A program made the position numbers and the translations under genes. Source: Actinomycetes bacterium (lineage in GTDB: Bacteria; Actinomycetota; Acidimicrobiia; Acidimicrobiales; Bog-793). From it: a stretch of DNA of 40,785 nt. The notes beneath the pieces were generated by a model. The model was not told the DNA's origin. It did no database searches and worked only from the letters and a program-made list of their open reading frames with translations. Below are positions 353 to 38,479 of the stretch, piece by piece (position 1 is the first letter of the stretch; each line of letters starts with the position of its first letter). Location: positions 1 through 40,785 of the forward strand of contig JAKATT010000177.1 in the NCBI GenBank assembly GCA_021818615.1, read 5' to 3'.

Positions 353-395
353 GAGCGGACGACGGGATTCGAACCCGCGACCCTCACCTTGGCAA
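353..395 (-). repeat. attL: duplicated 3' half of tRNA-Gly
   Basis: These 43 bases are identical and co-directional with 38437-38479 inside the intact tRNA-Gly gene. The match covers the anticodon loop, the 3' side of the anticodon stem, the variable loop, the T arm and the 3' acceptor strand. It stops at the 5' side of the anticodon loop, a usual crossover position for tyrosine integrases. No 5' half of a tRNA is present here, so this is an attachment-site remnant and not a gene. Confidence 0.88.
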
Positions 396-502
396 TTCGA
401 TCCCAGCGCTGCTCCGACCAGGGCCTCTCGACATAACTGCTGGTCACATGGTCCACGCCGTCCGTCTAGGTCCACACTGTACGACCAAATCCTGCGCGCT
501 AA

Positions 503-520
503 TGGCACATATGTGGCACG
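503..520. repeat. 18-bp subterminal repeat, left copy (possible integrase arm site)
   Basis: The sequence TGGCACATATGTGGCACG occurs here, 107 bp inside attL, and again at 38349-38366, 70 bp inside attR, in the same orientation. Each copy contains the unit TGGCAC twice. The positions suit integrase arm-type or Xis binding sites. The rest of 396-623 shows no gene that I can support. Confidence 0.55.
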
Positions 521-623
521 CCGGGGAGCCGCGTAGTAGCTGGTCAACGTCACAGTTCTGGGGCTCAGAGAGATCGATTCAGTCACAGTTCAGACCCTAC
601 TACGGGCCTGAGACATCAGCGGG

Positions 624-1054
624 TCATGACTCCACCAGCTCCGCTCGCAGCGTCTCGACCGTCCACGTCGGACAGCCGCAGCCGAGGAAGTCGTGGTCGC
701 CAGTGAGGATGCCTGCGTTGAGGACCATGGCCAGGGCAACGGTTGGCCAGTCGTTGGGGTCCCGTGGAACGCGTCGCCGTGCTGCCGCCTCCACGCGCTC
801 GTAAAAGTTACGAGAGATCACCTCAATGGCGTGCTCGGTAGGGAGCGCGGGAATCTGAGTGGAGAGCTGGTCCGCTTGGTCTGTAGTCAGTCGCCCCTGA
901 CGGACGATGACAGCGAGCCGCCGTGTGATTTCGTGCAGGGTTTCATCCCACTGCTCTGCAGCGACGACGACATCGAGTCGAGGGTCGGCGAGGAGTACCC
1001 GTCCCTGCGGAGCAACTGTGCGACGAGCACGCTCGCATCCGCCACGATGATCAT
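624..1054 (-). pseudogene. PIN-domain toxin, frameshifted
   Basis: The ATG at 1054 overlaps the antitoxin stop as ATGA, the classic toxin-antitoxin junction. It starts MIIVADASVLVAQLLRR, the usual N-terminus of a VapC-like PIN ribonuclease with its first acidic residue. Near 1003-1012 the reading frame must change to continue as VLLADPRLDVVVAAEQWDE and then to the C-terminus with TGDHDFLG, which carries the late acidic residues. The restored protein would be about 143 residues, normal for the family. In the given sequence the first frame stops early, so no complete toxin is made unless the shift is a sequencing error or translational frameshifting. Only the last 65 codons appear in the ORF track. 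Confidence 0.65.
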
Positions 1055-1308
1055 TCAGGCATGGGCCGCCGCAGGTCGAACAGCTGCGCCAGCTCCTCTT
1101 CGGTCATCCCGGTCTCTTCGAGAATCTTCTCGACGGTACGTCCGAGGTTCTCAATCGCCTGCTTGACTTGCTCATGGTCACGCTCGACTGGGATGTAGAA
1201 GCCGATCACCTGGCCGTGCTTGTTGACGGCGACCGGATCGGACCCGGACAAGTAGGTGGTGGCGTGATCCCGGAACTCCCGGACGCCGACGTTCTTCAGC
1301 TTTGACAT
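1051..1308 (-). CDS. Phd/YefM-type antitoxin
   Basis: This 85-residue protein starts MSKLKNVGVREFRDHATTY and continues with SGSDPVAVNKHGQVIGFYIP, the usual N-terminal DNA-binding fold of Phd/YefM antitoxins. The C-terminal part is charged and helical (ILEETGMTEEELAQLFDLRR), as expected for the toxin-binding tail. A GAGGTG ribosome site lies before the ATG. The gene is followed at a 4-bp overlap by the PIN toxin, which it would neutralise while repressing its own promoter. Family assignment is by motif; the cognate toxin is frameshifted, so the pair is probably no longer addictive. Confidence 0.8.
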   Translation of the reverse strand: MSKLKNVGVREFRDHATTYLSGSDPVAVNKHGQVIGFYIPVERDHEQVKQAIENLGRTVEKILEETGMTEEELAQLFDLRRPMPE

Positions 1309-1310
1309 TT

Positions 1311-1359
1311 GTGGTCACCTCGTGGTCACATTGTACGCCGGTCGGGCTCAGCTGGTCAA
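1311..1359 (-). promoter_or_regulatory. toxin-antitoxin promoter with direct repeats
   Basis: On the minus strand there is a -35 TTGACC (1359-1354), an 18-bp spacer and a -10 TACAAT (1335-1330) ahead of the antitoxin ATG. The octamer GTGGTCAC is directly repeated at 1311-1318 and 1322-1329, between the -10 box and the start codon. That is a plausible operator for autoregulation by the antitoxin complex. Confidence 0.5.
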
Positions 1360-1562
1360 CGACCGTGATGAGCGGCACGTCGGACTCGATGGCACCCAAC
1401 CAGCTCGGAGTGACTCCACTCCTGTCCCTGTACCACCCAGGCCGGTAGGGCTCCGGCCTCAAGACGTGCTCTGGGGCACGAGTGCCCCCTTCGGGCGCTC
1501 CGCTTCGTCCGTGGGCGGTGGGTCACCTCGATGAATCCACACTCTCACTGGAGGGCACCACG

Positions 1563-2000
1563 ATGGTCCCGACAACCTTCAACCTCATCCGGACGTTTAC
1601 CCGCCGACGACGGGTCGTCCGCCACCCGGACGCTGTGCCCGAAGCGCAGCTCAACCTCCCCCGAAGGATCGACGGTCCTGCAGCTGCAGCACAGGTCGCT
1701 GGTGACCTGCTCCGGCATCGCCGGGAAGACATCACGCTGGCGCTCTACCTGGACGACCGGCACCGCCTCGTCGGGACAGCCATCCTCGCTGTCGGCTGGG
1801 CTCAGGCAGCTCGCCTCTCGGCACGCCCGATCCTCTCAGGATCCCAGGCGTGTCGGGCCACCGGCTTCGTTCTCGTCCGTTATCGCCGCTGGGGCGCTCC
1901 CAGCGCCACGGAACCCGAGGATCGCACCTTCCGGTCCATCGCGGCGGCGTGCAGCCGGTACGGGCTCGTGGCGGTCGATCACCTCGTGGTGGTCGGCTGA
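1563..2000 (+). CDS. RadC/JAB-like domain protein
   Basis: The protein has 145 residues. The stretch LYLDDRHRLVGTAILAVG, followed by ARPILSGSQACRATGFVLVRYR and the end EDRTFRSIAAACSRYGLVAVDHLVVVG, follows the RadC/JAB layout that is common on plasmids and islands. The metal-binding HxHPSG motif of active JAB proteases is absent (VRYRRWGAPSATEPED stands in its place), so this is probably a non-catalytic member. The ATG at 1563 was chosen over the ORF-track start because GGAGGG precedes it and the extra 27 residues have no counterpart. The downstream neighbour is convergent. Confidence 0.65.
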   Translation: MVPTTFNLIRTFTRRRRVVRHPDAVPEAQLNLPRRIDGPAAAAQVAGDLLRHRREDITLALYLDDRHRLVGTAILAVGWAQAARLSARPILSGSQACRATGFVLVRYRRWGAPSATEPEDRTFRSIAAACSRYGLVAVDHLVVVG

Positions 2001-2043
2001 CGGGTGTTGCAGCTCGGCCAGGTCAGTCCGCTCCTGACGCTGC

Positions 2044-2205
2044 TCAGCGCGACGACCGGCGATTCGTCCGCCGGTTCGTCGGGCGAGGCGCTGCCCCCTT
2101 CGACGTGTGGGGCGTGGAGCGCTCATGCGCAGGCACCCGCGTCCCGTCTGCCCGCTTGTACGGGTGGACATAGACGATCTTCTTGCCCTTCTCGGTCTCG
2201 GCCAT
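2044..2205 (-). CDS. small basic protein, unknown function
   Basis: This 53-residue protein begins MAETEKGKKIVYVHPYKRADG and ends in an arginine-rich tail. A strong GGAGGTG ribosome site stands in front of the ATG, which supports real translation although the frame is too short to stand alone in the ORF track. The VHPYxRADGTxVxxHxR pattern resembles small proteins seen in actinobacterial accessory regions, but I cannot name a function. The basic tail suggests nucleic-acid contact (inference). It converges on the JAB-like gene and diverges from the TIGR04255 gene. Confidence 0.55.
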   Translation of the reverse strand: MAETEKGKKIVYVHPYKRADGTRVPAHERSTPHTSKGAAPRPTNRRTNRRSSR

Positions 2206-2224
2206 ACTGTTACACCTCCGTGGG

Positions 2225-2253
2225 TTCCCAGCCGATGTCGCGGGAAGTATACT
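2225..2253 (+). promoter_or_regulatory. promoter of the TIGR04255 operon
   Basis: A near-consensus TATACT lies at 2248-2253, only 9 bp before the ATG at 2263, with a weak -35-like TTCCCA at 2225-2230. Transcription would begin almost at the start codon, giving a leaderless or very short leader mRNA for the four-gene operon. Confidence 0.45.
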
Positions 2254-2262
2254 GGGAAGGTG

Positions 2263-3063
2263 ATGATGACCATGACCCCGTTCGGACCGTCGGTGCAGGA
2301 AGTACCACTGACCAGGGCTCCCCTGGTGAACGTGATCGCTCAGGTGCGCTTCCCGGCAGTGATGAAGATCGAGGACAGTGCCTTCGTGGCGAACTTCCAG
2401 GAGGCGATCCGGAAGGACTACCCGATCCTCCGGCCGGAACGGCAGCTCGGCGTCCTGATCGGGCCGGGAGGGGTCCAGCCGCAGGACGCTGGGACCGTGT
2501 GGCGCTTCGAGACGAAGGACCCGGATGCCTGGCAGGTGACGCTCGCGCCGAGCTTCGTGTCGCTCTCCGCGAAGCGGTACACGCGCCGGAGCGACCTTCT
2601 TGCTCGCCTGACTGTGGTGCTCCACGCCCTGGAAGGCTGGCTGCACCCGAACGTCTGCGACCGCATCGGCGTCCGATACGTGGACCGGGTGACAGGCGAG
2701 CAGCTCTCTCGAATCAGCACGCTCGTCCGTCCGGAGATACTCGGCGTCGCCGGGGATGAGGCTGCACTCGGCAGTGCGGAGGTCGTGCACGCCCTGTCGG
2801 ACACGCTGTTCCGACTCGACGATTCCTCGCAACTGCGTGGTCGATGGGGCAGGCTCCCCGCTGGTGCCACGTATGACCCCGGTATCGAACCGGCTCGCGA
2901 ACCGTCTTGGGTTCTCGATCTCGACCACTACACCGCGCAACAAGAGGACTTCGATCTCGCCACGATCGGCGGGACGGTCGCCGACTTCTGTGACCGCATC
3001 TACACGTTCTTCCGGTGGGCAGTCACTGACGCGTTCCTCGATGAGTTCGGAGCAGAGCGATGA
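2263..3063 (+). CDS. TIGR04255 family protein
   Basis: This 266-residue protein opens MMTMTPFGPSVQEVPLTRAPLVNVIAQVRFP, the signature N-terminus of the TIGR04255 family. Other family features are the central GVRYVDRVTG segment and the C-terminal FCDRIYTFFRWAVTDAFLDEFG. The family has no established biochemical role and is common in defence and accessory islands. The start was set at 2263 because GGGAAGG stands in front and the upstream extension is not family-like. Its stop overlaps the next start (ATGA). The next gene begins with a divergent segment of similar layout (PWAILPIADTLVE), so the two products may act together (inference). Confidence 0.75.
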   Translation: MMTMTPFGPSVQEVPLTRAPLVNVIAQVRFPAVMKIEDSAFVANFQEAIRKDYPILRPERQLGVLIGPGGVQPQDAGTVWRFETKDPDAWQVTLAPSFVSLSAKRYTRRSDLLARLTVVLHALEGWLHPNVCDRIGVRYVDRVTGEQLSRISTLVRPEILGVAGDEAALGSAEVVHALSDTLFRLDDSSQLRGRWGRLPAGATYDPGIEPAREPSWVLDLDHYTAQQEDFDLATIGGTVADFCDRIYTFFRWAVTDAFLDEFGAER

Positions 3064-3854
3064 GTCCGCAAGTCCACGCACGACCGAGCGCCCGTCTCGA
3101 CGACGCTGACGTTGAGGGACCCTGGGCGATCCTTCCGATCGCAGACACGCTCGTCGAGCGGAGGTCCTCAACCACGACGAGGCTCGGGATGCCCTTCGTC
3201 GTCCACGATCTCGACGACTTGCTCCTCGGTGCGGAACGGATGACTGGCGGAGCGATCAGCTGGAGCGACCAGTTCTGGCGGATCGACGTCAGCACAACGG
3301 AGACTGGCATCACCTACGCCAGCACCCCTCGTCCAGTACGTGAGGAGGTACAGAAGCTCCGCGACGAGATCGCTCGGCGCACGCGCCTCACCCGCGAGCA
3401 GATTGGTCGGGCTCTCGGCGTCGATCGCCGCTCGCTCAGCGCCTGGGTCAAGGGAGAGTCCGCCCCCGGCGCAGACAAGCTGGAACGACTTCAGCTGCTG
3501 GCGGACGTCGTCAGGGACATCGACGCATCCGAGCCAGGAAGTGCCACCGAGGTGTTGCTCAGCCGCACCGCAGGACAGGACCTTCTCGATCACATCGCGA
3601 GTGGCCGCTTTGCTCATGCTCGTGACTGGCAGCTTCTGCGCGGATCGTCTCCTTCGGTGAGGATCGTGCAACGCCTGTCCGCCAAGCGTCCACTCCATCA
3701 GAACGCGCTCGACGCCTATCTGCGAGGTGAGCTTCGTCCGCTCGGGCGAGCGGCCACCATCCGTCCTGAGTCGGACTACGAGCAGGACCTTGCCCGGGCA
3801 GAGCACCTCATGCCCAACGAGCCGGTCCGGAGAAGCCGCAGGGGCTACCGATGA
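3060..3854 (+). CDS. XRE-type helix-turn-helix protein
   Basis: The 264-residue protein has an N-terminal part of unknown fold (about 1-85). A clear XRE-like helix-turn-helix follows around residues 100-145: LTREQIGRALGVDRRSLSAWVKG, then a helix that ends LLADVV. A C-terminal alpha-helical region of about 110 residues completes it. The ATG overlaps the previous stop and its own stop overlaps the next start, so it is translationally coupled in the middle of the operon. It could be the operon regulator or a DNA-recognition subunit of a small system. Domain confidence is high, role unknown. Confidence 0.7.
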   Translation: MSPQVHARPSARLDDADVEGPWAILPIADTLVERRSSTTTRLGMPFVVHDLDDLLLGAERMTGGAISWSDQFWRIDVSTTETGITYASTPRPVREEVQKLRDEIARRTRLTREQIGRALGVDRRSLSAWVKGESAPGADKLERLQLLADVVRDIDASEPGSATEVLLSRTAGQDLLDHIASGRFAHARDWQLLRGSSPSVRIVQRLSAKRPLHQNALDAYLRGELRPLGRAATIRPESDYEQDLARAEHLMPNEPVRRSRRGYR

Positions 3855-4621
3855 TGGGTCCGGACGACTTCTACGAGTGGCACGACGAACCCCGGCAGGG
3901 CGACATCGTGCTGTGTGGCGTCTCGCGGATCATTGCCGACGATCGCCACAGTCCTCCGCAGTGGGAGGCACTCGATGCGCACTTCTTGGAGATTGACGGC
4001 GCCTGGGGCACGGGACGCCCACTTGGAGTCGCGGCTGGCATCAGCCTGGCAATGGTGGTCACGCACGATTGCCAGCTCGACAAGGGATGGAACCAGCGGG
4101 TCCGAGAGCTTGAGCGAGGGGGAATGACCCGTGAACGTGCCGAACGTGAAGCCACATCGGATGTGTCCCTCGACCGAACGCTGGTCGTCAGTCCACTCGT
4201 CGATCCGGGCGAGTTGCGTGGCGGACGCGGGAACCTGCTGGCGGGCAGAGTCATCGGCTATCTACCCGTCCCGGCGCACCCCGACAACCTCGTCGCCGAG
4301 TGCGTTGCTGACTTGACCTACCAGTGCACGATTGACCGTCTCGACGTTGCCAAGATCGCGTCGATCACTGAGGGCGCTCGCAAGCAGCTCCGCTATGCCC
4401 TGATCCAGCTGGATGCGCTGCGAACCGCGGACCTTGGGTTCGAGGTCGAAGCAGTTGTGGGCCGAACGATCCAGAAGGTCGAAGTTCCCGCTCGTAATCC
4501 GCTGACGGTCCGCCTCCAGCTGGATGATGGTCAGGTCATCCAGCTGCTCCAGCAACCGGGTGCGCCAGATCAGGAGACCGGACGGACCGGTGGCTTCTTC
4601 AGCTCGGGGGGGACTCCCTGA
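3851..4621 (+). CDS. unknown protein of the TIGR04255/HTH/HsdM operon
   Basis: The protein has 256 residues and I do not recognise a family. Visible features are an early [16 protein letters not shown], a hydrophobic stretch running into [15 protein letters not shown] with a His-Asp-Cys cluster, a charged helix ([17 protein letters not shown]), and a C-terminal acidic strand region ending in a Gly/Ser tail. The [10 protein letters not shown] segment resembles the 'SQxCDL' type strands of some defence-island proteins, but that is only a resemblance. It is coupled by ATGA to the HTH gene and by TGATG to hsdM, which suggests that its job is tied to DNA modification or defence. Confidence 0.6.
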
Positions 4622-5460
4622 TGGCCCGGCAGAACCGCAACGGCGAGCCTCTCGGCTTTGAGGACACCCTGTGGAAGGCAGCGGACAAGCTGCGCGGGTC
4701 TATGGACGCAAGCGAGTACAAGCACGTCGTCCTCGGTCTTGTGTTCCTCAAGTACATCGACGATGCCTTCACGGAGCGCCGGGAGAAGCTCGCTTCCGAC
4801 CTGGCGAAGGAGGGAATCACGGGTGACCAAGCGACAGACCTCCTGGAGTCCCGCGACGAGTACACGGCCGAGGGCGTCTTCTGGGTCCCTCCCGAGGCCC
4901 GCTGGGAGTTCCTGCAGTCGAAGGCGAAGCAGCCCGAGATCGGGAAGCTCATCGACTCAGCCATGGACGCCGTCGAAGTCGAGAACCCGAGCCTTCGAGG
5001 GGTGCTCCCGAAGAACTATGCCCGACCAAGCCTCGATGTCCGTCGCCTCGGCGAGCTGGTTGACATGATCGCCGGGCTTGGGCTCGGTGCTGCCGAGCAC
5101 CGGGAGAAGGACCTCCTCGGCCGGGTGTACGAATACTTCCTCGGGCGCTTCGCCTCACAAGAAGGAAAGGGTGGAGGCGAGTTCTACACGCCGCGCAGCG
5201 TCGTCAAGCTCCTGGTCGAGATGATCGAGCCGTACCAGGGACGAGTGTACGACCCGTGCTGCGGCTCCGGTGGCATGTTCGTCGAGTCCGAGCGCTTCGA
5301 CCTCGCCCGCTGGAAACGGGTCAACCGCGCTCAGCACCGTGCCCGGAAGGTCACGCATCGCTCATCACAAGGACACCCAATCGCGGGTCGGATGCCGATT
5401 GACGATCGGCTTGCTCCCAATACCCGTCGGCTCGCCGTAGCGCTGCACCAGCGAAGGTGA
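4621..5460 (+). pseudogene. hsdM: type I restriction-modification methyltransferase HsdM, truncated
   Basis: Residues 1-227 are a clean HsdM: the N-terminal helical domain ([36 protein letters not shown]), then the methylase domain with [19 protein letters not shown] and the SAM-binding motif [11 protein letters not shown]. After VESERF near 5301 the similarity ends abruptly and the frame runs through unrelated arginine-rich sequence to 5460. The catalytic NPPF motif and the rest of the roughly 500-residue protein are missing, and no hsdS or hsdR follows, so the enzyme must be inactive. The break marks the seam between the accessory left arm and the housekeeping block. Confidence 0.85.
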
Positions 5461-5600: not shown

Positions 5601-6167
5601 TCATGCCAGCCGTGTGCTCGGACCACCCATCACTGAGACCCCGAGATCGTTCTCTCGTGATATCGCGGCGTTCGCAGCGGCAACGTCGACAAGCCTGCCG
5701 GTCAACACAGGGTCCCCGATCGCGAGAATGCGAGCGGCCAGCAGCGCCGCGTTTCGAGCTGACCCGATTGCCACAGTCGCGACGGGCACGCCCGATGGCA
5801 TCTGCACGATCGAGAGCAGCGAGTCGATTCCGCCGAGGTGACGCAGGGGGACCGGGACACCGATCACGGGCAGGGGGGTCATCGCGGCAAGCATGCCTGG
5901 CAGGTGCGCGGCGCCGCCTGCACCGGCGATGATCACTTGTAGTCCACGGCCATTCGCCTCGCGACCGTAGGCGAGCATCGCCTCGGGAGTGCGGTGCGCG
6001 GACACGACGCGCACCTCGTGCGCGATGTGCAGATCGGCGAGCGTGTCCGACGCTGCGCACATGATCTCGAGATCCGACTTGCTGCCCATGACAACCCCTA
6101 CGCGGGGAGCAGCATCCTCAGAGGGGAGGTTGCTCTGCGGCATGCCAGCGGTGTCCGAGCCCCTCAT
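5601..6167 (-). CDS. purE: N5-carboxyaminoimidazole ribonucleotide mutase PurE
   Basis: The protein has 188 residues. It shifts the carboxyl group of N5-CAIR to give CAIR in purine synthesis, acting directly after PurK. Class I PurE motifs are all present: [37 protein letters not shown] and the late segment [13 protein letters not shown]. The start at 6167 follows GGGGGCGAGG; a second ATG at 6143 lacks a ribosome site. It lies 108 bp after purK on the same strand, in an apparent icd-purK-purE transcription unit. Confidence 0.93.
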
Positions 6168-6275: not shown

Positions 6276-7484
6276 TCATGGTTCCGTGAGCAGCGCGGCC
6301 GCCGCTTGCGCGGTCTCGAGCGCTTGCTCGGTGCTCGCCCCGAGGGCGGTGACGTGCCCAAGCTTGCGGCCAGGCCGAGGAGCCTTGCCGTACAGATGGA
6401 TGTGCGCGCCGGGGATCGCCAGAGCATGGGGGAGCCGGGCGGAGGGGTCGCAGGTGTCGGTGCCGTTGATGAGGTTCACGGTCGCAGCGGGGCTGCGCAG
6501 CGTCGTGGCACCGAGCGGCCAGTCGAGCACGGCACGCAAGTGCTGGTGGAACTGCGAGGTCTCACAGGCCTCGATCGTGATGTGGCCGGAGTTGTGCGGC
6601 CGCAGGGCGAGCTCGTTGACGAGAAGCTGGCCACGGGTGTCGAGGAACATCTCCACGGCGAGAACTCCGGTGGCGTCGATGCCGTCAGCGATCGACTTCG
6701 CCATCCGACCGGCCTGGTCGATGACGGGGGCGGGCAGCGATGCCGGCATGAGCAGGTGCCTGCAGATTCCGGCCTCCTGGACGGTTTGGACGGCGGGGTA
6801 CAGCGCCACGTACCCTGAAACGCTGCGCGCGATCAGGATCGCCAGTTCGGCCGCGATGTCGACGTGCTCCTCGGCCAGCCACAGCGATTTCTCAAGCGGT
6901 CCCTGCTCGAAGAGACCCGCCACCTGGTCCAGGCTCTCGATCAGGTGCACACCTCGACCGTCGTACCCGCCCGTCGCGCTTTTCACGATGACCGGCCACC
7001 CGTGTGCTTCGGCGAACCTCGCTACGTCTCCGGGTGACGACACCGGAGCGAACGCCGGCACGGGGAAACCCGACTCCGATAGGACCGTGCGAGCCTCCAG
7101 CTTGTCCTGGGCCAGGCTCAGTGCAGGAGACGCCGGGCGCAAGCGAAATCCGAGCTGCTCCAGTCGCTCCAGATGCGCTCCAGGGACGAGCTCGTGGTCG
7201 AAGGTGACGACATCGGCTCCCGCAGCCACCGCCTGGATATCCGCCAGGCACGACGATGATCCCAACCGGTGCGGTGCGCCGCCGACGACGGCGCTGTCAT
7301 CGGTGGACCCGGCCAGGACTACGAGGTCGATGTCGAGGTCGACGGCGGCCTGGTAGGTCATGCGGGCTAGTTGCCCAGCTCCGATCATCGCCACCCGGGC
7401 AGACGCCGGCCTGCGGAAGCTCACCTCGCCGCTCCCGTTACGAGCACTAGGCAGCCCTCGTCGCGGACCTCCGATCATGGTCAT
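6276..7484 (-). CDS. purK: N5-carboxyaminoimidazole ribonucleotide synthase PurK
   Basis: This is an ATP-grasp enzyme of about 402 residues that makes N5-CAIR from AIR, bicarbonate and ATP. It shows the N-terminal VAMIGAGQLARMTYQAA, the ATP-grasp stretch PVIVKSATGGYDGRGVHLI, the metal/ATP site VLAVEMFLDTRGQLLVNELALRPHNSGH, and the C-terminal HIHLYGK. The ATG at 7484 overlaps the icd stop (ATGA), which is why it was chosen. A GTG at 7424 would give a protein closer to the usual N-terminus and cannot be excluded. PurE is the next gene downstream. Confidence 0.92.
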   Translation of the reverse strand: MTMIGGPRRGLPSARNGSGEVSFRRPASARVAMIGAGQLARMTYQAAVDLDIDLVVLAGSTDDSAVVGGAPHRLGSSSCLADIQAVAAGADVVTFDHELVPGAHLERLEQLGFRLRPASPALSLAQDKLEARTVLSESGFPVPAFAPVSSPGDVARFAEAHGWPVIVKSATGGYDGRGVHLIESLDQVAGLFEQGPLEKSLWLAEEHVDIAAELAILIARSVSGYVALYPAVQTVQEAGICRHLLMPASLPAPVIDQAGRMAKSIADGIDATGVLAVEMFLDTRGQLLVNELALRPHNSGHITIEACETSQFHQHLRAVLDWPLGATTLRSPAATVNLINGTDTCDPSARLPHALAIPGAHIHLYGKAPRPGRKLGHVTALGASTEQALETAQAAAALLTEP

Positions 7485-27814: not shown

Positions 27815-27853
27815 GTGTCGCAGTGCTGGGGCTGGAAGTACCAGTTGCGACAC
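27815..27853. terminator. hairpin between convergent merR-like gene and ardC
   Basis: GTGTCGCA (27815-27822) pairs with TGCGACAC (27846-27853), extended by CTGG/CCAG with small bulges. A second arm pair, GAGGAGACGGC/GCCGCCTCCTC, overlaps the end of ardC at 27857-27883. Both lie between convergent genes. Confidence 0.4.
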
Positions 27854-27868
27854 TGGGGAGGAGACGGC

Positions 27869-29440: not shown

Positions 29441-29484
29441 TGAGCATCCCCCCTCTGGCCGGACACCTCGACTAGGAGGTATCC

Positions 29485-29805
29485 ATGCCAGTGGTGACCG
29501 AGGAGAGCCCGCCGCCCCAGCGACGACGAGGCCGCTACCCCAAGCAGTTCCGCAAGGACGCAGCTGCGCTCGTCATCGACCAGCACCGAAGCGTCGCCGA
29601 CGTCGCGCGTGAGCTCGGCGTCGTCGAGCAGACGCTCGGCAACTGGGTCCGCCAGGAGCGCATCGACCGGGGCGAGAAAGAGGGCACAACGACCGAGGTC
29701 CGCGAGGAGAACGCCAGGCTTCGCCGGGAGGTGAAGCGCCTGACGATGGAGCGTGACCTGCTCAAACGAAGTGTGGCCTTCTGGGTGAAGGAGCAGGACC
29801 GGTGA
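29485..29805 (+). CDS. IS3-family transposase OrfA
   Basis: The protein has 106 residues. The helix-turn-helix [41 protein letters not shown] is followed by a leucine-zipper-like helix ([29 protein letters not shown]). This is the IS-end-binding partner of OrfB. It starts after AGGAGG, and its stop overlaps the orfB GTG start (GTGA). OrfA is intact, but the element cannot transpose on its own while orfB is split. Confidence 0.92.
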
Positions 29806-30624
29806 GCCGCTACCGGTTCGTCTCCACCATGAAGGCCGAAGGGTTCCCCGTCAGAGCGGCCTGCGAGGCGGCCGAGGTCTCCACCTCGGCCTACTACGAC
29901 TGGACGGCCAAGGTGGCCGCCGGACCCACCGAGTCCGAGTGGGACGAGGCGCTCGTCGTGAACGAGATGCACGACGTGCACGCCCACCACGACGACACCT
30001 ACGGATCCCCGCGCATGACGAGCGAGCTGCGACGTCGGGGCTTCTGCGTCAACCACAAGCGCACCGAGCGCCTGATGGCCGAGAACGGCATCGTGGCCAA
30101 AGACGGGAGGCGGAGGAAGGTCCGCACGACGATCCCCGACGTCACGGCCCCGCCGCTTCCGGACCTCGTGCGTCGGGACTTCTCCGTCGGTGAGCCCGGG
30201 CGGCGGACCTGCGGGGACATCACCTATGTCCCTACGGGTGAGGGCTGGCTCTACCTCGCTTCGGTGCTGGACCTCGGAAGCCGACGGTTGATCGGCTTCG
30301 CCATGGGCGAGCGCATGCCCTGGGAGCTGTGCAGGGACGCGATCGACATGGCGGTGTCGACGCGCTGCGGGGAGGTCGCGGGGATGCTGTTCCATCACGA
30401 CAGGGGCAGCCAGTACCTGTCGCAAGACTTCCGGGGGCACTGCACGAAGCTCGGCATCGTCCAGTCCGTCGGCCGCGTCGGATCGTGCCTCTTAACCGGT
30501 CAATGTTCCTTTGGCAGTAGTAGTCCGCCTGTGGACTCTGTGGATAGTGGGGAGAAGTGTTTGGGCAGATCCACAGCTTTTCCCTCTTGTTCTCGACAGG
30601 CACGTCATGGGTTACTGATGTCGC

Positions 30625-31707
30625 ATGGACACCGACCTGCGTGTCGTACTCGAGGACGATCAGTGGCAGCTGTTGGGCGAGCACACGTCTGAGGTCGTCA
30701 AGCTCGCCAACGATTACCTCGGTTACCTCGCCGACAGGAACTACTCGTCCCAGACCGTCCGCACCTACGCCTTCGCGCTGCTCGCCTTCGGCCGGTGGCT
30801 CTCCTGCGAGGACATCGAGCTCGATGCGGTCACGACCGACGTGCTGCTCGACTACCTGAGAGCCTGCCGAGCGGCGCGGGTCGCCGGTCGCCCCGGTCCC
30901 AACGTGGTGCGCATGGACGGCAAGCGAGCCGACGCCTACAAGCCATCGACGATCAACCTGCGCCTGGCAGCCATCGAGGGGCTGTTCGCCTTCAGGTGCA
31001 TGCGGGACCCCGAGGCGAAGAACCCGGTCCCCAAGGGCAAAGAGGCACGGAGGCCGAGCGCCGGGGAACGAGCCGGGATGCTCAGCCACGTGGCCCGGCG
31101 CCCTCGCCAGCGCTCGCCACTCCGACTGCGAGAGCCGCGCCTGCTCCCGCGGTCGCTCGATCGCCACGAGGTCGTGGCGCTCGTGGAGAGCCTGCAGAGC
31201 TTTCGGGATCGGGCCATCGCCGGGCTCATGGTGTTCTGCGGGCTGCGCGCCGGAGAAGTGCTGGCCCTCGAGGTCAAAGACGTCGACATCGGCGGGCGCT
31301 GGCTCACGGTCTTTGGCAAGGGCAGGAAGCAGCGACGCGTCCCCCTCGACGTCGACGTGGCAGGCATGATCCAGACCTACCTGCTGGCCGAACGACCCGA
31401 GACCACATCCAAGACACTCTTCGTCGTGGCCAAGGGTCCCAACCGCGGCCAGCCCCTCACGCCGGCGGGACTGCGCACCGTCTTTCGCTACCACCGCGCC
31501 AAGGCTGGGGTTCCCGCCGGTCATCCCCACGCGCTCCGTCACACCTTCGGCACCGCCCTCGCAGAGGCCGGGGTCGATCTCGCCGTGATGCAGGCGCTGC
31601 TCGGACATTCCCACATCGACACCACGGCCCGATACGTCCACCTCGCCCCCGCACACGTGAAGGAGGAGTTCGATGCCGCGCGCCAGCGTCAACGGGCGCG
31701 TCGCTGA
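30625..31707 (+). CDS. tnpA: tyrosine recombinase TnpA of the Tn554-type element
   Basis: The protein has 360 residues. The N-terminal SAM-like DNA-binding domain (ANDYLGYLADRNYSSQTVRTYAFALLAFGRWL) precedes a complete catalytic domain: Arg in VFCGLRAGEVLALEV, Lys in FGKGRKQRRVPL, His-x-x-Arg in HALRHTFGTALAEAG, His in LLGHSHIDTTARY, and Tyr in ARYVHLAP. All five catalytic positions are intact. It overlaps tnpB by 35 bp, so the two are translated together. Confidence 0.92.
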   Translation: MDTDLRVVLEDDQWQLLGEHTSEVVKLANDYLGYLADRNYSSQTVRTYAFALLAFGRWLSCEDIELDAVTTDVLLDYLRACRAARVAGRPGPNVVRMDGKRADAYKPSTINLRLAAIEGLFAFRCMRDPEAKNPVPKGKEARRPSAGERAGMLSHVARRPRQRSPLRLREPRLLPRSLDRHEVVALVESLQSFRDRAIAGLMVFCGLRAGEVLALEVKDVDIGGRWLTVFGKGRKQRRVPLDVDVAGMIQTYLLAERPETTSKTLFVVAKGPNRGQPLTPAGLRTVFRYHRAKAGVPAGHPHALRHTFGTALAEAGVDLAVMQALLGHSHIDTTARYVHLAPAHVKEEFDAARQRQRARR

Positions 31708-33586
31708 GCGCGCGGCGGGCGACCTCGTCTCCGACTACGTCGCCCACCTCGCTCGCACCGGGAGAGGAACCGTCAACGCAGAGGCCAACGCCCGACGCTT
31801 CCTGCACCGTTGGCCCGAGCCCCAGCAATGGGCCGCGCAGCCCCTCGCCCAGCGTCTTTCCGAGGATCCGAACACGAGGACATTTGTCACCTTCTTGATC
31901 GTCTGGGGTCACGTCCGCCCCGGTTACGACTACCTCGTCTCGAGAAAGCTCGCGAGCTTCTGGAGGGAGATAACCGGCACATCGCTCGAAGAGGACATGG
32001 CGCGCTTTTGCCGGGCAGCCGAGTCCATCGGCTACACCCCGATCAACGCGTGGCGCAGTGCTTCTCAGTCGGTCGGTCGTCTGCTCATCCAGAGCGGACG
32101 CCGTCTCGACGAGCTCATCGTGGCGGACTTCGCGGAGCTGACGGCGGCGTGTCGGAACCACGAGGAAGCGACCGGAAAGGGAACGCGCCATTACCGCTCG
32201 GCGCTCAGCTGTGCGCACCGGGTGCTGTTCCACCTCGGGATCATCGACACACCGCCCCCGCACTGGCAGGGACCCGAGAGCTACGAGCGGCGCATGGCCG
32301 ACGTCGCAGCGTCCCTACGCCCAGCCTTCGTCGCCTGCCTCGAGCGCAAGGCTGCGACCTGCCGGCAAAAGACAGTGACCGGCACCGCCACGCGTCTCGC
32401 CCACTTCGGTCGCTTCCTCGCGCAGATCGACCCGGACCTGTCCTCCCTGGCCGAGCTCGGCCGGGAGCGACACATAGAGCCCTATCTCAACTCGATCAGC
32501 AGCGCCGTCAACTCCAAGAGCGGTGCGCCGATCAGCCCAGCCGACCAAGACCGGCGGATCCGGGCGATCGCGGGTTTCCTCACCGACGTCGCCGAGTGGG
32601 GCTGGGAGCAGGCCCCGTCCCGCGAGCTCGTCTTCCGCTCCGACATGGTGCGCCTTCCGCGTACGCTCCCGCGTTATCTGCCCGTCGATGCCGACCGGCG
32701 CCTCTCCGAGGCGCTCGAGCGCTCCGAGTACCGCCAGGCCGCCGACGCGCTCCTCCTCCAGCGGGCCTGCGGCCTTCGCATCGGAGAGCTGCTCGACCTC
32801 GAGCTCGACTGCGTCCACGAGATCCCGGGCAACGGGGCGTGGCTCAAGGTCCCCCTCGGCAAGCTCGACACCGAGCGGATGGTCCCCCTCGACGACGAGA
32901 CGGTCGCCCTCATCGACCGCATCGTCGCCACGCGCACCGAGGGACGTCCGCTCCTCCATCCGCGCACCCGGCGTCTCGTCCAGTTCCTCTTCACCCACCA
33001 CGGCCGCCGACTCGGCCAGGCCGCCCTCCGCCTCGAGCTCGACCGCGCCGCCAAGGAGGCCGGACTGGGACACGTGACCAGCCACCAGCTCCGTCACACG
33101 TTCGCCACCGCCATGGTGAACGCCGGGGTGTCGCTCCAGAGCCTCATGGCACTGCTCGGCCACGTCTCGGCCGAGATGAGCCTGCGTTATGGGCGGCTCT
33201 TCGACCAGACCGTGCGCGCCGAATACGAACGAGCGCTCGATCTCGCCAAGGCCCGCATTGGACCGCTCCCCGACAACAAGCGGCGGATCCCGCTCCGCGC
33301 CGACGGCGACTGGCGCGACGAGCCCGCCCTCAAGTCCCGTCTCGCCGGTGGCTACTGCCTGCGGGCGCCGGCTCAAGGAGCGTGCCCCTACGCGAACATC
33401 TGCGAGCACTGTCCGAGCTTTCGCACCGACGCGGCAAGCGTCTCTGTGCTCGGTGCCCAACGGATCGACGCCGAGGCGCTGGCCCAAGACGCCGAAGCTC
33501 GCGGCTGGATCGAAGAAGCCGAGCGCCATCGCCGTCTCATCACCCGCCTCGACGCGCTCTTGGCCGAAGCAGAAGAAGCCGGGTGA
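31673..33586 (+). CDS. tnpB: tyrosine recombinase TnpB of the Tn554-type element
   Basis: The long 637-residue recombinase carries the catalytic set Arg (LQRACGLRIGELLDLEL), Lys/Thr (LGKLDTERMVPLDDET), His-x-x-Arg (SHQLRHTFATAMVNAGV), His (LLGHVSAEMSLRYGRL) and Tyr. A C-terminal cysteine cluster (CLRAPAQGACPYANICEHCPSF), typical of TnpB, probably binds metal. The start ATG at 31673 lies inside the end of tnpA with GGAG in front. The stop overlaps tnpC. The gene is intact. Confidence 0.92.
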   Translation: MPRASVNGRVAERAAGDLVSDYVAHLARTGRGTVNAEANARRFLHRWPEPQQWAAQPLAQRLSEDPNTRTFVTFLIVWGHVRPGYDYLVSRKLASFWREITGTSLEEDMARFCRAAESIGYTPINAWRSASQSVGRLLIQSGRRLDELIVADFAELTAACRNHEEATGKGTRHYRSALSCAHRVLFHLGIIDTPPPHWQGPESYERRMADVAASLRPAFVACLERKAATCRQKTVTGTATRLAHFGRFLAQIDPDLSSLAELGRERHIEPYLNSISSAVNSKSGAPISPADQDRRIRAIAGFLTDVAEWGWEQAPSRELVFRSDMVRLPRTLPRYLPVDADRRLSEALERSEYRQAADALLLQRACGLRIGELLDLELDCVHEIPGNGAWLKVPLGKLDTERMVPLDDETVALIDRIVATRTEGRPLLHPRTRRLVQFLFTHHGRRLGQAALRLELDRAAKEAGLGHVTSHQLRHTFATAMVNAGVSLQSLMALLGHVSAEMSLRYGRLFDQTVRAEYERALDLAKARIGPLPDNKRRIPLRADGDWRDEPALKSRLAGGYCLRAPAQGACPYANICEHCPSFRTDAASVSVLGAQRIDAEALAQDAEARGWIEEAERHRRLITRLDALLAEAEEAG

Positions 33587-33888
33587 CTTCACCTGAGACC
33601 CTCGCTCGGGTCGAACGGGCGTGCGCCGAGCTGGTCCGTGACGCTGAGCCGGTGAGCTTTACCAACGTCGCCGAGCGGGCTCAGATCAGCCGGACGACGC
33701 TCTACCGAGACGAGAACCTCCGGGTGGTCGTCGAAGAACACCGTCAACGCAGTCACGATCCGCGGAGCCTCTCGGGAGTGGTGGCCGAGGTCGGTCACCT
33801 GCGAACCGCCGTGGAGGCTCTCGCCGAACGCGTCCGAAGCCACGAGGAACAACTGCGCCGGCTGAATCGCAAGCGGAAAGCCAACTGA
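33583..33888 (+). CDS. tnpC: TnpC-like accessory protein of the Tn554-type element
   Basis: The protein has 101 residues from a GTG that overlaps the tnpB stop (GTGA); it is missing from the ORF track because the frame has no ATG. SPETLARVERACAELVRDAEPVSFTNVAERAQISRTTLYRDENLRVVVEEHRQ is a TetR/HTH-like motif. A C-terminal coiled coil follows (VAEVGHLRTAVEALAERVRSHEEQLRRL). Tn554 TnpC has this size and layout and influences the efficiency and orientation of transposition. Confidence 0.82.
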   Translation: MTSPETLARVERACAELVRDAEPVSFTNVAERAQISRTTLYRDENLRVVVEEHRQRSHDPRSLSGVVAEVGHLRTAVEALAERVRSHEEQLRRLNRKRKAN

Positions 33889-34125
33889 AGGCCCCTCCTT
33901 CGTCAGCGTTGTCCACAGATCTGGAGCACGATTAGCCGGTTAATGCCACGACAACAGCCCGGCGGAATCGTTCTGGGCGAGCCTCAAGCGGGAGCTGGTC
34001 AGCCGTTTCCGCTTCGAGACCCGAGCCCAGGCCCGGCATGCCATCACCGCCTGGATCAAGCACTACAACGCCACCAGGTTGCACAGCTCCCTTGGGAATC
34101 TCCCGCCGATCGAGTGGGAGCTGCG

Positions 34126-34614
34126 CTACCGTCTGGGAACCCTACAGGCCGCATAACCACGTGTCCGGCTGGCGGGGGGAAGGCTACTCCGGGTGCCGCT
34201 CCGTACCCTGGTGAGCAGGACGACGAGGTCGGGATCGTTCCCAGCGCCGACAATCAGCTCAAGCGTCGGTCGGAGGCGATTGAGGTCTTGCAATGTCGGT
34301 TGGACTGGGAGGAGCACGGTCTGGCAAAACTGCACAGCAGCCCGGACGATGACCGTGTCGCCCGGTGGTGTGTCGATCACGACATGTGCGAAGCCCGTCG
34401 TCTCACGAGGCAGCCGAGAGCCGAGCGTACGTACGCCAAGGGCAATCGTCGTGAAGGGAAGGTCGGGTGCGAGTGCCGCCCAGCTTGCCGCTGAGCCCTG
34501 CGGATCAGCGTCCACGAGAAGGGTGCCATCCAGACGTCCCAGGTTCGCCGCGAGGTGTACGGACGTGATGGTCTTTCCGACGCCACCTTTCAAATTCACA
34601 ACTGCGATGTTCAC
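34126..34614 (-). pseudogene. parA: ParA-family ATPase, C-terminus cut off by IS3
   Basis: The real gene part (34187-34614) starts GTG and reads NIAVVNLKGGVGKTITSVHLAANL with the deviant Walker A KGGVGKT. It continues with LLVDADPQGSAASWAAL and HVVIDTPPGDTVIVRAAVQF, a small plasmid-type partition ATPase. After LLTRVRSGTRS it runs into the IS3 inverted repeat and stops at 34126 with foreign residues. About 60 C-terminal residues are missing, so partition function is doubtful. No parB is visible; if it lay downstream it was lost with the same deletion. Confidence 0.85.
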
Positions 34615-34784
34615 TGCTGATCGCCGTTTTCACGGCGCCCCTTAGTTCCTTACATACGACCCTAAGTGATCGCTTCTACGGAATGGATGGTACGAAATAC
34701 GCACGGTAGTTGTATATAGATTTAGAATTTTCGTTGGTGTGAGCAGTGCCTTGAGGCATCTTCGGTCGCGTAGCTCGATCACTG
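34615..34784. promoter_or_regulatory. AT-rich intergenic region upstream of parA
   Basis: This is one of the most AT-rich stretches of the window (TTGTATATAGATTTAGAATTTT near 34706-34730). It carries a small hairpin CGCCGT-TTTC-ACGGCG at 34622-34637 just before the parA GTG. It probably holds the parA promoter, and the end of the RES transcript reads into it. No gene is seen. Confidence 0.4.
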
Positions 34785-35333
34785 TCACCAGTCGAAAGGC
34801 CCGTACCACTCCTCGAAGGACTGGGTCTGCTTCGCCTGCAGCTCGACCTCATGCCGATCAAACCAGGCCAACTCCTCGCCGTCGGACGGTGCGTGCGCTG
34901 CAGCCGACCGGCATGCAATGCCTGGATGCGCGTCGTCCCAGGCTCGCTGCCCGACGGGTTGGCATACATCCCAGGGAACGACGTTGCCCATTCCATCGGC
35001 GGGGTACGTCGGCGGGAGGCCGTTGAGCACGATCGCATCGCGCGTCACGACGTCGAGGTAGCGACCATCGGGAACGTCGAGCGAGATGAGGACAGGTAGC
35101 TCTGAACGTTCCAGGTCCTCGGCAGCAAAGGGCTGTCCGCGCAGCTTCTCAGTGAGGAAGTGCCGGGCATTGGCCCGAGCCGTCCCAAGATCGGCGTTCA
35201 GGTAGGTGACTGGAAAGCTCCCAGCCGCATTCCAGCGTGCGCCAAAGCGCATCGAGTACGACCCGTCGAGGGGGTCCTCCCATGCTGGATCGGCGACGCG
35301 GTAGTACTCACCGTCACGATCGATGACCTCCAT
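34785..35333 (-). CDS. RES-domain toxin
   Basis: The protein has 182 residues. The RES fold is seen in YYRVADPAWEDPLDGSYSMRFGARWNAAGSFPVTYLNADLGTARAN, with Arg-Tyr/Glu-Ser type conserved residues. RES toxins break down NAD+ and halt growth until bound by their Xre-type antitoxin. The ATG overlaps the antitoxin stop as TAATG, so expression is coupled. The C-terminal part (PSDGEELAWFDRHEVELQ) is less conserved. As the third toxin-antitoxin pair in the island, its likely role is maintenance or defence. Confidence 0.82.
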   Translation of the reverse strand: MEVIDRDGEYYRVADPAWEDPLDGSYSMRFGARWNAAGSFPVTYLNADLGTARANARHFLTEKLRGQPFAAEDLERSELPVLISLDVPDGRYLDVVTRDAIVLNGLPPTYPADGMGNVVPWDVCQPVGQRAWDDAHPGIACRSAAAHAPSDGEELAWFDRHEVELQAKQTQSFEEWYGPFDW

Positions 35334-36187
35334 TACGCAGTGCCCGACCAGTCAAAGGCTTGCTCAGTCAGCGTGCGCAGCTCGCCATCACGGTCAGTGC
35401 GCACCATGTCGAGCATCGTGAGGCCGCCGTACACATCGGCCCGTCTCCGTGCGACAAGCGGGAGGCGGCCTGGGCTGAGCTTGCGCTCCAACAACTCGCC
35501 GACCGAGAGAAGGTTGGCGAGCTTCTCTCGCCGAGCCGCGGGGACGTCGCCGTTCTGCTCCCACTGTTCGACTGCCTGACGCTTCACGCCGAACAGCTCA
35601 GCAATCTCGCCCGTGTTCAGATCGAACAGTTCTCTTACTCGCGCGAGCGGTGGCTGCATCGAGCGGAGCGCAAGGTCCACGAGCCGACGGTAGCGGGCCA
35701 CGTCGCTCCCCTCTGGCAGATCGGGCCAGCCGGAGGACACATCGATGCGCAGCTGCGAACACCCTGGCAGGAGCAGGCGGATGGCGTCGATCGCCACGAC
35801 GCCGAAGCCGACGTCTCGTCCGAAGCGCGAGATCAGAGGCGAGAAGGGCACATCGCTGATGAGGTGATTGAGGTAGCGAATCGGCTCGACACTCAAGACG
35901 TGAGCCGCCGTCAGGATGCCGAAATGGTCGTCGGTCTTGCGAACGAGGTCAGGAAGCTCGTCCGAGGCAGACTCAAGCACGTCACCAATGAGCCCGTGCC
36001 AGCGATTCACGAGGACGACGATCGATGGCCACTCGCCCCGAAGAGCATGCGGCATCGCTTCCCGGAACGCATCGAACTGGTCGGAGACGTCCTCCAGGAG
36101 CTTGGCGCACTCGTCAGCGCTCTCGGCACGGAGCGCTCTGGCGAGAGTGTCGCTCACCCCATAGCCGCTGGTCCGGTACCTGATCAT
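35333..36187 (-). CDS. Xre-type antitoxin of the RES pair, long form
   Basis: The protein has 284 residues. An N-terminal helical region of about 190 residues precedes a helix-turn-helix, FDLNTGEIAELFGVKRQAVEQWEQNGDVPAARREKLANLL. The C-terminal segment ends LPLVARRRADVYGGLTMLDMVRTDRDGELRTL, where RES antitoxins block the toxin. The long N-terminal part is unusual for this family, in which about 130-160 residues is common; it may sense or bind something else. A -10 box lies 6 bp before the ATG, giving a leaderless transcript. Confidence 0.75.
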   Translation of the reverse strand: MIRYRTSGYGVSDTLARALRAESADECAKLLEDVSDQFDAFREAMPHALRGEWPSIVVLVNRWHGLIGDVLESASDELPDLVRKTDDHFGILTAAHVLSVEPIRYLNHLISDVPFSPLISRFGRDVGFGVVAIDAIRLLLPGCSQLRIDVSSGWPDLPEGSDVARYRRLVDLALRSMQPPLARVRELFDLNTGEIAELFGVKRQAVEQWEQNGDVPAARREKLANLLSVGELLERKLSPGRLPLVARRRADVYGGLTMLDMVRTDRDGELRTLTEQAFDWSGTA

Positions 36188-36700: not shown

Positions 36701-36725
36701 GGCTCGCGCCACCGCCTGACGTCGC

Positions 36726-37094
36726 TCAACCGCGCGGGTCGTTAGAGCTGGAGCCGTTGATCATCTTCTCCAGCGCTGCCTTCGGAACGAGGATGCGGCG
36801 CCCGATGCGGATGCACGGTATGTCGCCGTTGGCGACGGCCTCGTAGGCAAAGGCACGGGAGATGCCAAGCGCCTTTGCGGCCTCCTCGACCGTGAGGGTG
36901 AGCCGCTGGACGGGGCGATCGGAGTCAGCCTCTCCGGCCCTGCGCCGCTCGATGTGGAAGTCGAGCCACTCGGCGACCTTCATCGCCTCGTTGAGCGCAT
37001 CCTGGTTCTCGTCCCACCAATGGGGCTGGATGAACGAGATGAGACCGAACGTCTCCTCGAAGGGAAGCTCTGGAATCTCCTCGTCGCCGGGCAC
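36726..37094 (-). CDS. excisionase-like helix-turn-helix protein
   Basis: The protein has 122 residues. The C-terminal half is a MerR/Xis-like winged helix: LTVEEAAKALGISRAFAYEAVANGDIPCIRIGRRILVPKAALEKMI. The N-terminal 55 residues are acidic with aromatic residues (FEETFGLISFIQPHWWDENQD). It starts at a GTG and lies 41 bp from the end of int in the same orientation (int first), the usual place for an excisionase or small regulator in actinobacterial integrative elements. Confidence 0.75.
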   Translation of the reverse strand: MPGDEEIPELPFEETFGLISFIQPHWWDENQDALNEAMKVAEWLDFHIERRRAGEADSDRPVQRLTLTVEEAAKALGISRAFAYEAVANGDIPCIRIGRRILVPKAALEKMINGSSSNDPRG

Positions 37095-37135
37095 GGAACC
37101 AGTGTGGCAGCCGGTCTCTTCGGATGGCGAACAGC

Positions 37136-38365
37136 TCAGGATGCCGTTCGGCTCTCTTTGGCGTCCTGCGGGCCTCGGAGCTTCGCCACGGTGGCCTTCT
37201 TCCGTGACCCGGGCTTCGGAGCGCCCTTCACGATGAGCTTGGAGAGTGCTGCAGCGATCGCTGCATCCCGGTCCTTGGTGGCGTGCTGGTAGATGAGCGC
37301 TGCTCGGGGAGAGGCATGCCCCATCCTGGACATCAGCTCCTTGGTGCTGGCTCCAGTCGCTGCTGCAAGCGTGTTTCCGGTATGGCGCAAATCGTGAAAA
37401 TGGAAGCCTGGCAAGCCTGCTTCCTCGGCTGCCCTGTTCCAGTTCCGGTAGAAGGTCTTGCGGTGGAGCGGTTGCTGCTGCGTTCCGCAGAACACGAGGC
37501 CGTCCGGTCCTGGCCCGGAGAAGGACGCTAGGTGTTGCTCAAGCTCGGGGACCAGCACGTCAGGGATCGTCACGGTCCTGCGACCGGCATCGGTCTTCGG
37601 GGGACCGAGCACGAGCTGCCCGCTCGACAGCTCCTGGTACTGCTCGACCACCTGCACGGTCTTGTGGAGCACGTCCACCCGGTCACGCCGGAGCGCTCGC
37701 AGCTCACCGAACCGGAGCCCAGTGAAGGTGGCGAAGAGGACCATCAAGCGAAGCGACGGTCCGATGGCGTCTGCGATGGCGTACACCTGCTCGATGGTCG
37801 CGACGGGCCGCTCCGCTGGCCGATCCGTCGAAGCGCCTCGCAAGAGGCAGGGGTTCTTCGGGATCATCTCGTCCTCGACTGCCGTGGCAAGGATGGCGTG
37901 CAGGAGTCGGTAGCACTTGGCAACGGTGGGTGCGCCGGGCTTCTCGGCAGCAAGCAGATCGGCATGCCACTGCCGGACCATGCTCGGACTGATCTTCGAG
38001 AGGTCCTTGTCGCCGAGCGTCGGCTTGATGTGGAGTCGGAGGTTCGTCTCGTACTGCTCCTGGCTGCGAGGGCGAAGGGTTGGTCGCTTCTGTTCGAGCC
38101 ACTTGTCGGCATACTGCCGGAGCGGGATGCGCCCCTGTTCCGGTGGCAGCCACGTCCCCCGTTCGATGTCAGCCCGCGTCGCGGCCAGGAACGCCTCAGC
38201 GTCTCGCTTCGTGCGATAGGTGGCGGGAGCTGCCCGCCAGACACCGTCGGCCCGGTAGCGGGCCTGCCAGCGCCCCGACGGCAGTTTCCGCGTGCTGCCC
38301 CATGAGCTGCGGGAACGGGTCACGGCCACGGGCTCCAGGATACCGCTGTGGCACATATGTGGCAC
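37136..38365 (-). CDS. int: tyrosine integrase of the island
   Basis: The protein has 409 residues. The arm-binding N-terminus (WGSTRKLPSGRWQARYRADGVWRAAPATYRTKRDAEAFLA) is followed by a core-binding domain (LRQYADKWLEQKRPTLRPRSQEQYETNLRLHI). The catalytic domain has Arg in FTGLRFGELRALR, Lys in GPPKTDAGRRTV, HDLRHTGNTLAAATG, GHASPRAALIYQHA and the final tyrosine. All catalytic residues are present, so it should be active. It lies next to the intact tRNA-Gly. The annotated start lies inside the 18-bp subterminal repeat. Confidence 0.92.
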   Translation of the reverse strand: MPHMCHSGILEPVAVTRSRSSWGSTRKLPSGRWQARYRADGVWRAAPATYRTKRDAEAFLAATRADIERGTWLPPEQGRIPLRQYADKWLEQKRPTLRPRSQEQYETNLRLHIKPTLGDKDLSKISPSMVRQWHADLLAAEKPGAPTVAKCYRLLHAILATAVEDEMIPKNPCLLRGASTDRPAERPVATIEQVYAIADAIGPSLRLMVLFATFTGLRFGELRALRRDRVDVLHKTVQVVEQYQELSSGQLVLGPPKTDAGRRTVTIPDVLVPELEQHLASFSGPGPDGLVFCGTQQQPLHRKTFYRNWNRAAEEAGLPGFHFHDLRHTGNTLAAATGASTKELMSRMGHASPRAALIYQHATKDRDAAIAAALSKLIVKGAPKPGSRKKATVAKLRGPQDAKESRTAS

Positions 38366-38366
38366 G
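38349..38366. repeat. 18-bp subterminal repeat, right copy, over the int start
   Basis: This is an identical copy of 503-520 (TGGCACATATGTGGCACG). It spans the start codon of int, so binding of Int or Xis here could also repress int translation or transcription. Confidence 0.55.
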
Positions 38367-38383
38367 GAGCCTCTGAGACAACA

Positions 38384-38411
38384 AAAGAGGGACCCTTTCG
38401 AGTCCCTCTTT
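38384..38411 (-). terminator. Rho-independent terminator downstream of tRNA-Gly
   Basis: On the minus strand AAAGAGGGAC pairs with GTCCCTCTTT around an 8-nt loop, followed by TGTTGTCT. It lies directly after the tRNA and before int, and lies inside the island, so the element supplies a terminator for the tRNA that it rebuilt. Confidence 0.7.
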
Positions 38412-38436
38412 GAGGCTGTGACCTGGTCTTTCTTTG

Positions 38437-38479
38437 GAGCGGACGACGGGATTCGAACCCGCGACCCTCACCTTGGCAA
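38437..38479 (-). repeat. attR: att core within the tRNA-Gly gene
   Basis: These 43 bases are identical to 353-395. They form the 3' half of the functional tRNA-Gly plus two bases beyond it. Integration here preserves the tRNA because the element brings its own copy of the 3' half. Confidence 0.88.

Follow-up and report, generated by a model that had tools for sequence, protein, structure and literature searches.

The window analysed here, a stretch of 40,785 bp that forms the whole of contig C19 in bin G000, contains a tRNA-Gly-specific island (positions 353 to 38479), and this island rather probably carries an 18-kb conserved mobile module for the supply and use of inorganic carbon which has partly replaced genes of its host. 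The bin is a metagenome-assembled genome (MAG; 2.8 Mb, 227 contigs, 86% complete) from an uncultured organism related to acid-loving bacteria, and labels beginning with G denote the genomes compared, G000 being the window's own bin. The basis for this reading is formed by the ends of the island, a gene cluster conserved in other genomes, a clade of IlvD sequences that crosses families and the second copies of cluster genes present elsewhere in the bin. The 'housekeeping' genes of the cluster are shared mobile cargo and not a misplaced piece of chromosome. This offers a reason for the duplication or replacement of essential enzymes by mobile DNA, as the set may travel with a pump that supplies a shared substrate, and it shows a path by which essential genes could be left with their sole copies on an excisable island.

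Gene content of the cargo

The cargo lies between 5.6 and 24.0 kb of the window, with its genes on the reverse strand unless stated otherwise. Its enzyme genes are purE (5601..6167; TIGR01162 above cut-off), purK for an HCO3- user (6276..7478; equivalog above cut-off), an alpha-type icd with a C-terminal domain (7481..8935; TIGR02924 and NF006673 above cut-off), folC (9175..10533), the cluster type of ilvD (10590..12311, forward strand; also placed by the IlvD tree), larB for a CO2 user (12395..13165; NF033503 above cut-off), alr (13216..14379), a bioD-like gene for another CO2 user (14502..15164; TIGR00347 at 73 bits, just under the 83-bit cut-off), tsaC/sua5 for a second HCO3- user (15230..16240), a gpm/cobC-like histidine phosphatase gene (16333..16989; below specific cut-offs) and a gene for a fabI-like enoyl-ACP reductase (22149..22961; 273 bits against a 299-bit cut-off). 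Housekeeping genes were called with NCBIfam (purE, purK, icd, folC, ilvD and tsaC) or Pfam (alr and fabI); all of these are full length, and they lie inside the island as a preliminary description of this DNA had stated. However, that description missed the genes which explain the block, namely dabA, dabB, the PII-like gene, larB, bioD and DUF6671.

Domain matches identify the PII-like gene (17135..17434), dabA (17454..20012) and dabB (20009..21619), which are followed on the forward strand by a MarR-like winged-helix regulator (21794..22138; just under Pfam cut-offs) and, beyond fabI, by the DUF6671 gene (23063..24007; domain match and predicted fold). DabA retains all five residues of the published zinc site and Asp-Arg dyad (C359, D361, R363, H537 and C552), and its antiporter-like partner DabB is present. 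In the dabB-dabA pair, the zinc site and the dyad the locus resembles the DAB and MpsAB (DAC) pumps (PF10070 with PF00361), but here the pump is tied to DUF6671, a PII-like gene and isozymes instead of carboxysome or RuBisCO genes. The DUF6671 protein has a predicted ITPase/YjjX-like domain (Foldseek E 7e-4; predicted local distance difference test, pLDDT, 89.7 for the alignment-based prediction and 36 for a single-sequence prediction) followed by a cysteine-rich C-terminal region, perhaps a zinc ribbon, and on the modelled fold it is possibly a house-cleaning nucleotide hydrolase. No earlier description of DUF6671 or of this gene combination was found in the open-access literature searched. 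The family gains a context, in bicarbonate-transport loci, together with a predicted fold.

Recurrence of the cluster in other genomes

The order DUF6671-fabI-HTH-dabB-dabA-PII-phosphatase-tsaC-bioD-alr-larB-ilvD-folC-icd-purK-purE (HTH, helix-turn-helix) was found, with members missing or decayed, in G193 (the most complete), G016, G006, G188, G401 and G050, and also in many named MAGs which, from their record titles, come apparently mostly from mine drainage. The cluster occurs sporadically across families of the Acidimicrobiales, and its flanks vary among genomes. A scan of 84,980 genomes returned 36 DabA loci, many of them interrupted by contig ends, with the regulator at 25, at least one isozyme at 23, DUF6671 at 22 and tsaC at nine of the 36; outside the window the cluster alr was seen in G394 only. 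Named isolates with the cluster or a related locus are Aciditerrimonas, Acidithrix and, outside the order, Streptacidiphilus, where tsaC, HTH, dabB, dabA, carbonic anhydrase and DUF6671 are grouped together. The cluster is being lost piecemeal, as seen from decayed remnants in G006, where only the two ends of icd are left (L049 10708-11016), and in G016, where bioD and tsaC are fragments (L047 4658-5025).

Some of these loci have further features. The cluster in G193 (contig C317, L090/L091) is flanked by hydrogenase-type genes recognised by eye (HypF-like, membrane hydrogenase subunits). One contig (L159, JAJYHR010000104) has two dab loci, the first of which is a broken dabA beside gpm, tsaC, ilvD, folC and icd, and at L134, L135 and L137 dabA has tsaC directly downstream, followed by what by eye is a gene like the large subunit of CO dehydrogenase/aldehyde oxidase.

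The preliminary description had proposed either that an integrative element captured a chromosomal segment, in the manner of an R-prime or F-prime, or that a rearrangement moved the host's own core DNA into the island. Capture of a stretch of a relative's chromosome, in which the genes would be neighbours by happenstance, agrees with their full length, with a GC content near that of the host and with the existence of other copies elsewhere. However, several families share the set and its order with differing flanks, the ordinary copies sit on separate contigs, the cluster IlvD is a separate clade and related loci are present on plasmids of other phyla; this reading is largely refuted and has very little probability left. 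The block is built around DabAB in a fixed gene order, occurs across families and, reduced, on plasmids, and has an IlvD clade of its own, which speaks against both the capture first proposed and a rearrangement of host DNA. The cargo does not derive from the host chromosome as a captured segment. Its GC content (0.69) is within the range of the host sample (0.64-0.71), and that of the cluster in G401 tracks its own host (0.56), so that composition is no marker of recent arrival.

In a tree of IlvD sequences all ten cluster copies form a single clade with members from four families (support 1.0), and the ordinary copies of the window's family, including that on contig C155 of the bin, group together (0.99). 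Counted by search, second copies are present on other contigs of the bin for ilvD (60%), folC (43%), alr (53%) and larB (52%), while C157 encodes a different type of isocitrate dehydrogenase and C17 a leuB-like relative. No second purE, purK, tsaC, fabI or bioD was found in the bin (86% complete), an absence which is only suggestive because 14% of the genome is missing. The merodiploidy that had been raised for central metabolism holds for ilvD, folC, alr, larB and, through its second type, icd. The cluster purEK and tsaC are also the only copies found in G193, and the cluster purK is the only purK found in G006 and G140. In the genome of the window the cluster versions of purE, purK and tsaC, and perhaps those of fabI and bioD, seem to have taken the place of the host's own, and because of this apparent replacement the host can probably no longer lose the element freely. 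The suggestion that excision would be lethal is partly borne out: since no purEK or tsaC was found outside the island, excision would be costly, and the genes are probably essential there.

DUF6671 loci on plasmids

A search of 72,556 plasmids for DUF6671 found 12 carriers, in Actinobacteria and Proteobacteria. On 11 of these a bicarbonate transporter is near DUF6671 (Dab on eight, SbtA on three), at a distance of up to about 5 kb on 10 plasmids and of 12 kb in Methylocystis. TsaC is near DUF6671 on a Nocardia plasmid and carbonic anhydrase on a Mycolicibacterium plasmid (mine), and the Methylocystis locus has bioD, crotonyl-CoA carboxylase, an acyl-CoA carboxylase subunit, pyrC and ilvD nearby; ilvD is also near DUF6671 on Fuscovulum and two Arthrobacter plasmids. 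The plasmid IlvDs fall outside the cluster clade, so IlvD was probably recruited more than once, and a single travelling IlvD lineage for all DUF6671 loci is not supported. Genes for TerC/Alx-type membrane proteins, cysD, pyrC and dTMP kinase were also seen near DUF6671, on plasmids L197, L193, L195 and L196. A bicarbonate transporter with a PII-like partner recalls SbtA/SbtB uptake, and DUF6671 itself adjoins SbtA on Arthrobacter plasmids, although SbtA belongs to a transporter family unrelated to Dab. A broader proposal, which we put forward tentatively, is that mobile inorganic-carbon modules across phyla, with DUF6671 beside Dab or SbtA and with their own CO2/HCO3--linked and other essential isozymes, may displace the purEK, tsaC and further genes of the host, leaving essential metabolism encoded on a mobile element alone.

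Proposed bicarbonate supply and use

BioD and LarB are users of CO2. PurK consumes HCO3-, and cyanobacterial purK mutants require high CO2 (PMC10880623); TsaC also consumes HCO3-, the human homologue having a Michaelis constant (Km) of 13 mM (PMC5951830). In the proposed mechanism DabAB would be active in this organism in the vectorial hydration of CO2 to cytoplasmic bicarbonate, probably under the control of the PII-like protein and the winged-helix regulator, and the alternative HCO3-/CO2 users PurK/PurE, TsaC, BioD and LarB would sustain biosynthesis when bicarbonate is short, for example in acidic water. The isozymes would be xenologs that move between families together with the module, and IlvD, Icd and other cluster enzymes would travel along, with a less clear tie to bicarbonate. 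Corynebacterium glutamicum at low CO2/HCO3- secretes valine and alanine, for which the authors proposed a rise in CO2-forming thiamine pyrophosphate enzymes (PMC4522908), and by analogy this response could tie IlvD to the module, with a more indirect tie for Icd and Alr. Which reactions fail first at low bicarbonate, and whether the cluster isozymes relieve them, are testable questions.

No match to RuBisCO (PF00016) was found in G000 (86% complete), G016 or G006, and the module is therefore not simply part of a Calvin-cycle system; RuBisCO is present in G193, G188, G401 and G140. As to whether dabAB stands in for an absent carbonic anhydrase, G000 has a partial Pro_CA match. If about 1% of metabolic enzymes use CO2/HCO3-, the chance of four to five such users among 10-11 enzymes is ~1e-6 to 1e-8, a post hoc figure to be read as a rough guide. 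The bicarbonate idea had already been written down when carboxylases, TsaC and carbonic anhydrase turned up on other replicons.

Several points weigh against the main reading. The CO2/HCO3- theme was noticed only after the gene list had been seen. To our knowledge IlvD, FolC, Alr and FabI use neither CO2 nor HCO3-, and FolC and FabI are left unexplained by it. Elsewhere than in this genome the cluster was not seen within a tRNA island and its flanks look chromosomal, the left junction of the cargo near 5.3 kb has been seen once only, and the missing second copies may just be unassembled in a MAG that is 86% complete.

An alternative accepts the same mobile cluster but takes its isozymes as stress- or inhibitor-resistant substitutes (against metals, oxidants or antibiotics), with dabAB as one member among equals. 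IlvD, FabI, Alr and FolC are generally known as drug or stress targets, most carriers come from samples that their record titles suggest to be metal-rich mine drainage, and TerC/Alx-type genes are near DUF6671 on some plasmids. However, resistance leaves unexplained the constant tie to two unrelated bicarbonate transporters, Dab and SbtA, as well as the presence of PurEK, TsaC, BioD, LarB, carbonic anhydrase and carboxylases, and we consider it unlikely.

Ends of the island

The island is bounded by a perfect 43-bp direct repeat that spans tRNA-Gly from the anticodon loop to the 3' end. The distal copy (353..395, reverse strand) is 100% identical to 38437-38479, which lies within an intact tRNA-Gly(GCC) (38435..38510, reverse strand; tRNA scan and repeat search), and the two are the att cores of one element. 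Adjoining the intact tRNA are a full-length tyrosine integrase of the tRNA-Gly type (37136..38365, reverse strand; Phage_integrase and SAM-like domains, sibling integrases) and a gene for a Xis-like HTH_17 protein (36726..37094, reverse strand; domain match). A 17-bp palindrome, TGGCACATATGTGGCAC, has exactly two sites in the window (503..519 and 38349..38365), ~108 and ~72 bp inside the left and right cores, and a search with 3 mismatches returned the same two places only (both strands each; 0.06 matches expected). Their layout is that expected for arm sites of the integrase or Xis, a role we assign putatively. The preliminary description had recognised an island from the repeat and the integrase and Xis-like genes, and the exact repeat, the paired palindrome and the sibling integrases at tRNA-Gly all support it.

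A tRNA scan around nine sibling integrases (51-88% identical) found at least one tRNA near seven of them, with tRNA-Gly present in each of these cases. The two closest (88% and 74%) are beside tRNA-Gly(GCC) with an identical 43-bp core, and a variant of the palindrome is found beside the closest. At least two copies of the core are present on single contigs of several genomes (G404:C33, G405:C67, G035:C249, G062:C12 and G003:C111), and tRNA-Gly(GCC) therefore seems to be an integration hotspot in the order. Unrelated remnants do occur at such a hotspot, and the half-tRNA at 353 might be one of them, the block then being ordinary chromosome between two unrelated events. However, the only two exact copies of the palindrome in the window lie just within the two ends of the island, and no relative was seen with the block fixed beside tRNA-Gly, nor with tRNA-Gly, core block and half-tRNA but no accessory genes, the arrangement that had been named as speaking against an island; an old remnant is highly improbable. 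A search of relatives for an empty attB with the left flank, of which 352 bp lie outside the island, found none; apart from the tRNA core the flank matched just 19 bp, in G009, and a homologue of the upstream flank (TetR, G006:C296) is without an adjoining tRNA there. Among the window open reading frames (ORFs) scanned, which were part of the total, no relaxase, coupling protein, DNA translocase or replication gene was found, and none of the sibling-integrase islands examined had the same cargo.

The element resembles tRNA islands with a tyrosine integrase and an HTH Xis in its att core from the 3' part of a tRNA, the integrase by the tRNA, the xis-like gene, the paired inner palindromes, and the toxin-antitoxin and antirestriction genes. 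Unlike those islands, it carries isozymes of core metabolism, arranged in a set order around a transporter. In Vibrio cholerae an island with its own recA is likewise reported to be a mobile element that provides a diverged version of a core gene (PMC4405046), whereas here ~10 core enzymes travel as one conserved set.

Arms and junctions

The left arm begins with a vapBC-like toxin-antitoxin pair recognised by eye (625..1308, reverse strand), formed by a PIN-like ORF and an antitoxin-like ORF (1051-1308); the pair found no support in Pfam, and its antitoxin region is 83% identical in DNA to G193. A RadC-like gene and three more ORFs, one of them HTH (1482..4621, forward strand; domain matches), are probably element backbone, since homologues of 2107-4621 adjoin a sibling integrase in G111. 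The likely left junction with the cargo is a truncated hsdM of ~220 codons (4621..5460, forward strand; N6_Mtase profile matched over 2-67 of 311), whose match to its family ends at ~5.3 kb. A repeated insertion sequence at this junction was ruled out, as 381 bp (5240-5620) are found nowhere else in the bin. The right arm (25806..36187; domain matches) has PIN, SSB, MerR, ArdC, ORF6N, an IS3-type transposase, two tandem tyrosine recombinases and a RES toxin with an HTH partner. Two parts of this arm have close matches in other families, the SSB-MerR-ArdC stretch in G193 (93% identical) and the RES region in G188 (83% identical).

The contig might also be a chimera of assembly or binning, in which the cluster of one organism was joined to the island arms of another. 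The data are from a MAG, the junction at ~5.3 kb is unique, and a contig in the bin of another family is 98-99% identical to the window over its ~3.7 kb, reflecting either recent transfer or cross-binning. Against this, the order DUF6671-PIN-SSB of the right side recurs in the single-contig genome G049, with insertion sequences between, the cluster and RES/xis-like genes adjoin in G188, and the paired palindromes connect both ends of the island, making a chimera improbable.

The tandem recombinases (30625-33586; the second ~640 aa) recur at G193:C294 (L126), G016:C80 and G394:C139, and in G193 they are close to the ArdC-MerR-SSB stretch. They may be a mobile unit of their own within the island. 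The RES toxin and its HTH partner (34785-36187) are 94% identical in protein at G188:C4 (L096) 7682-9084, in another family, where the pair sits between the cluster ilvD and icd.

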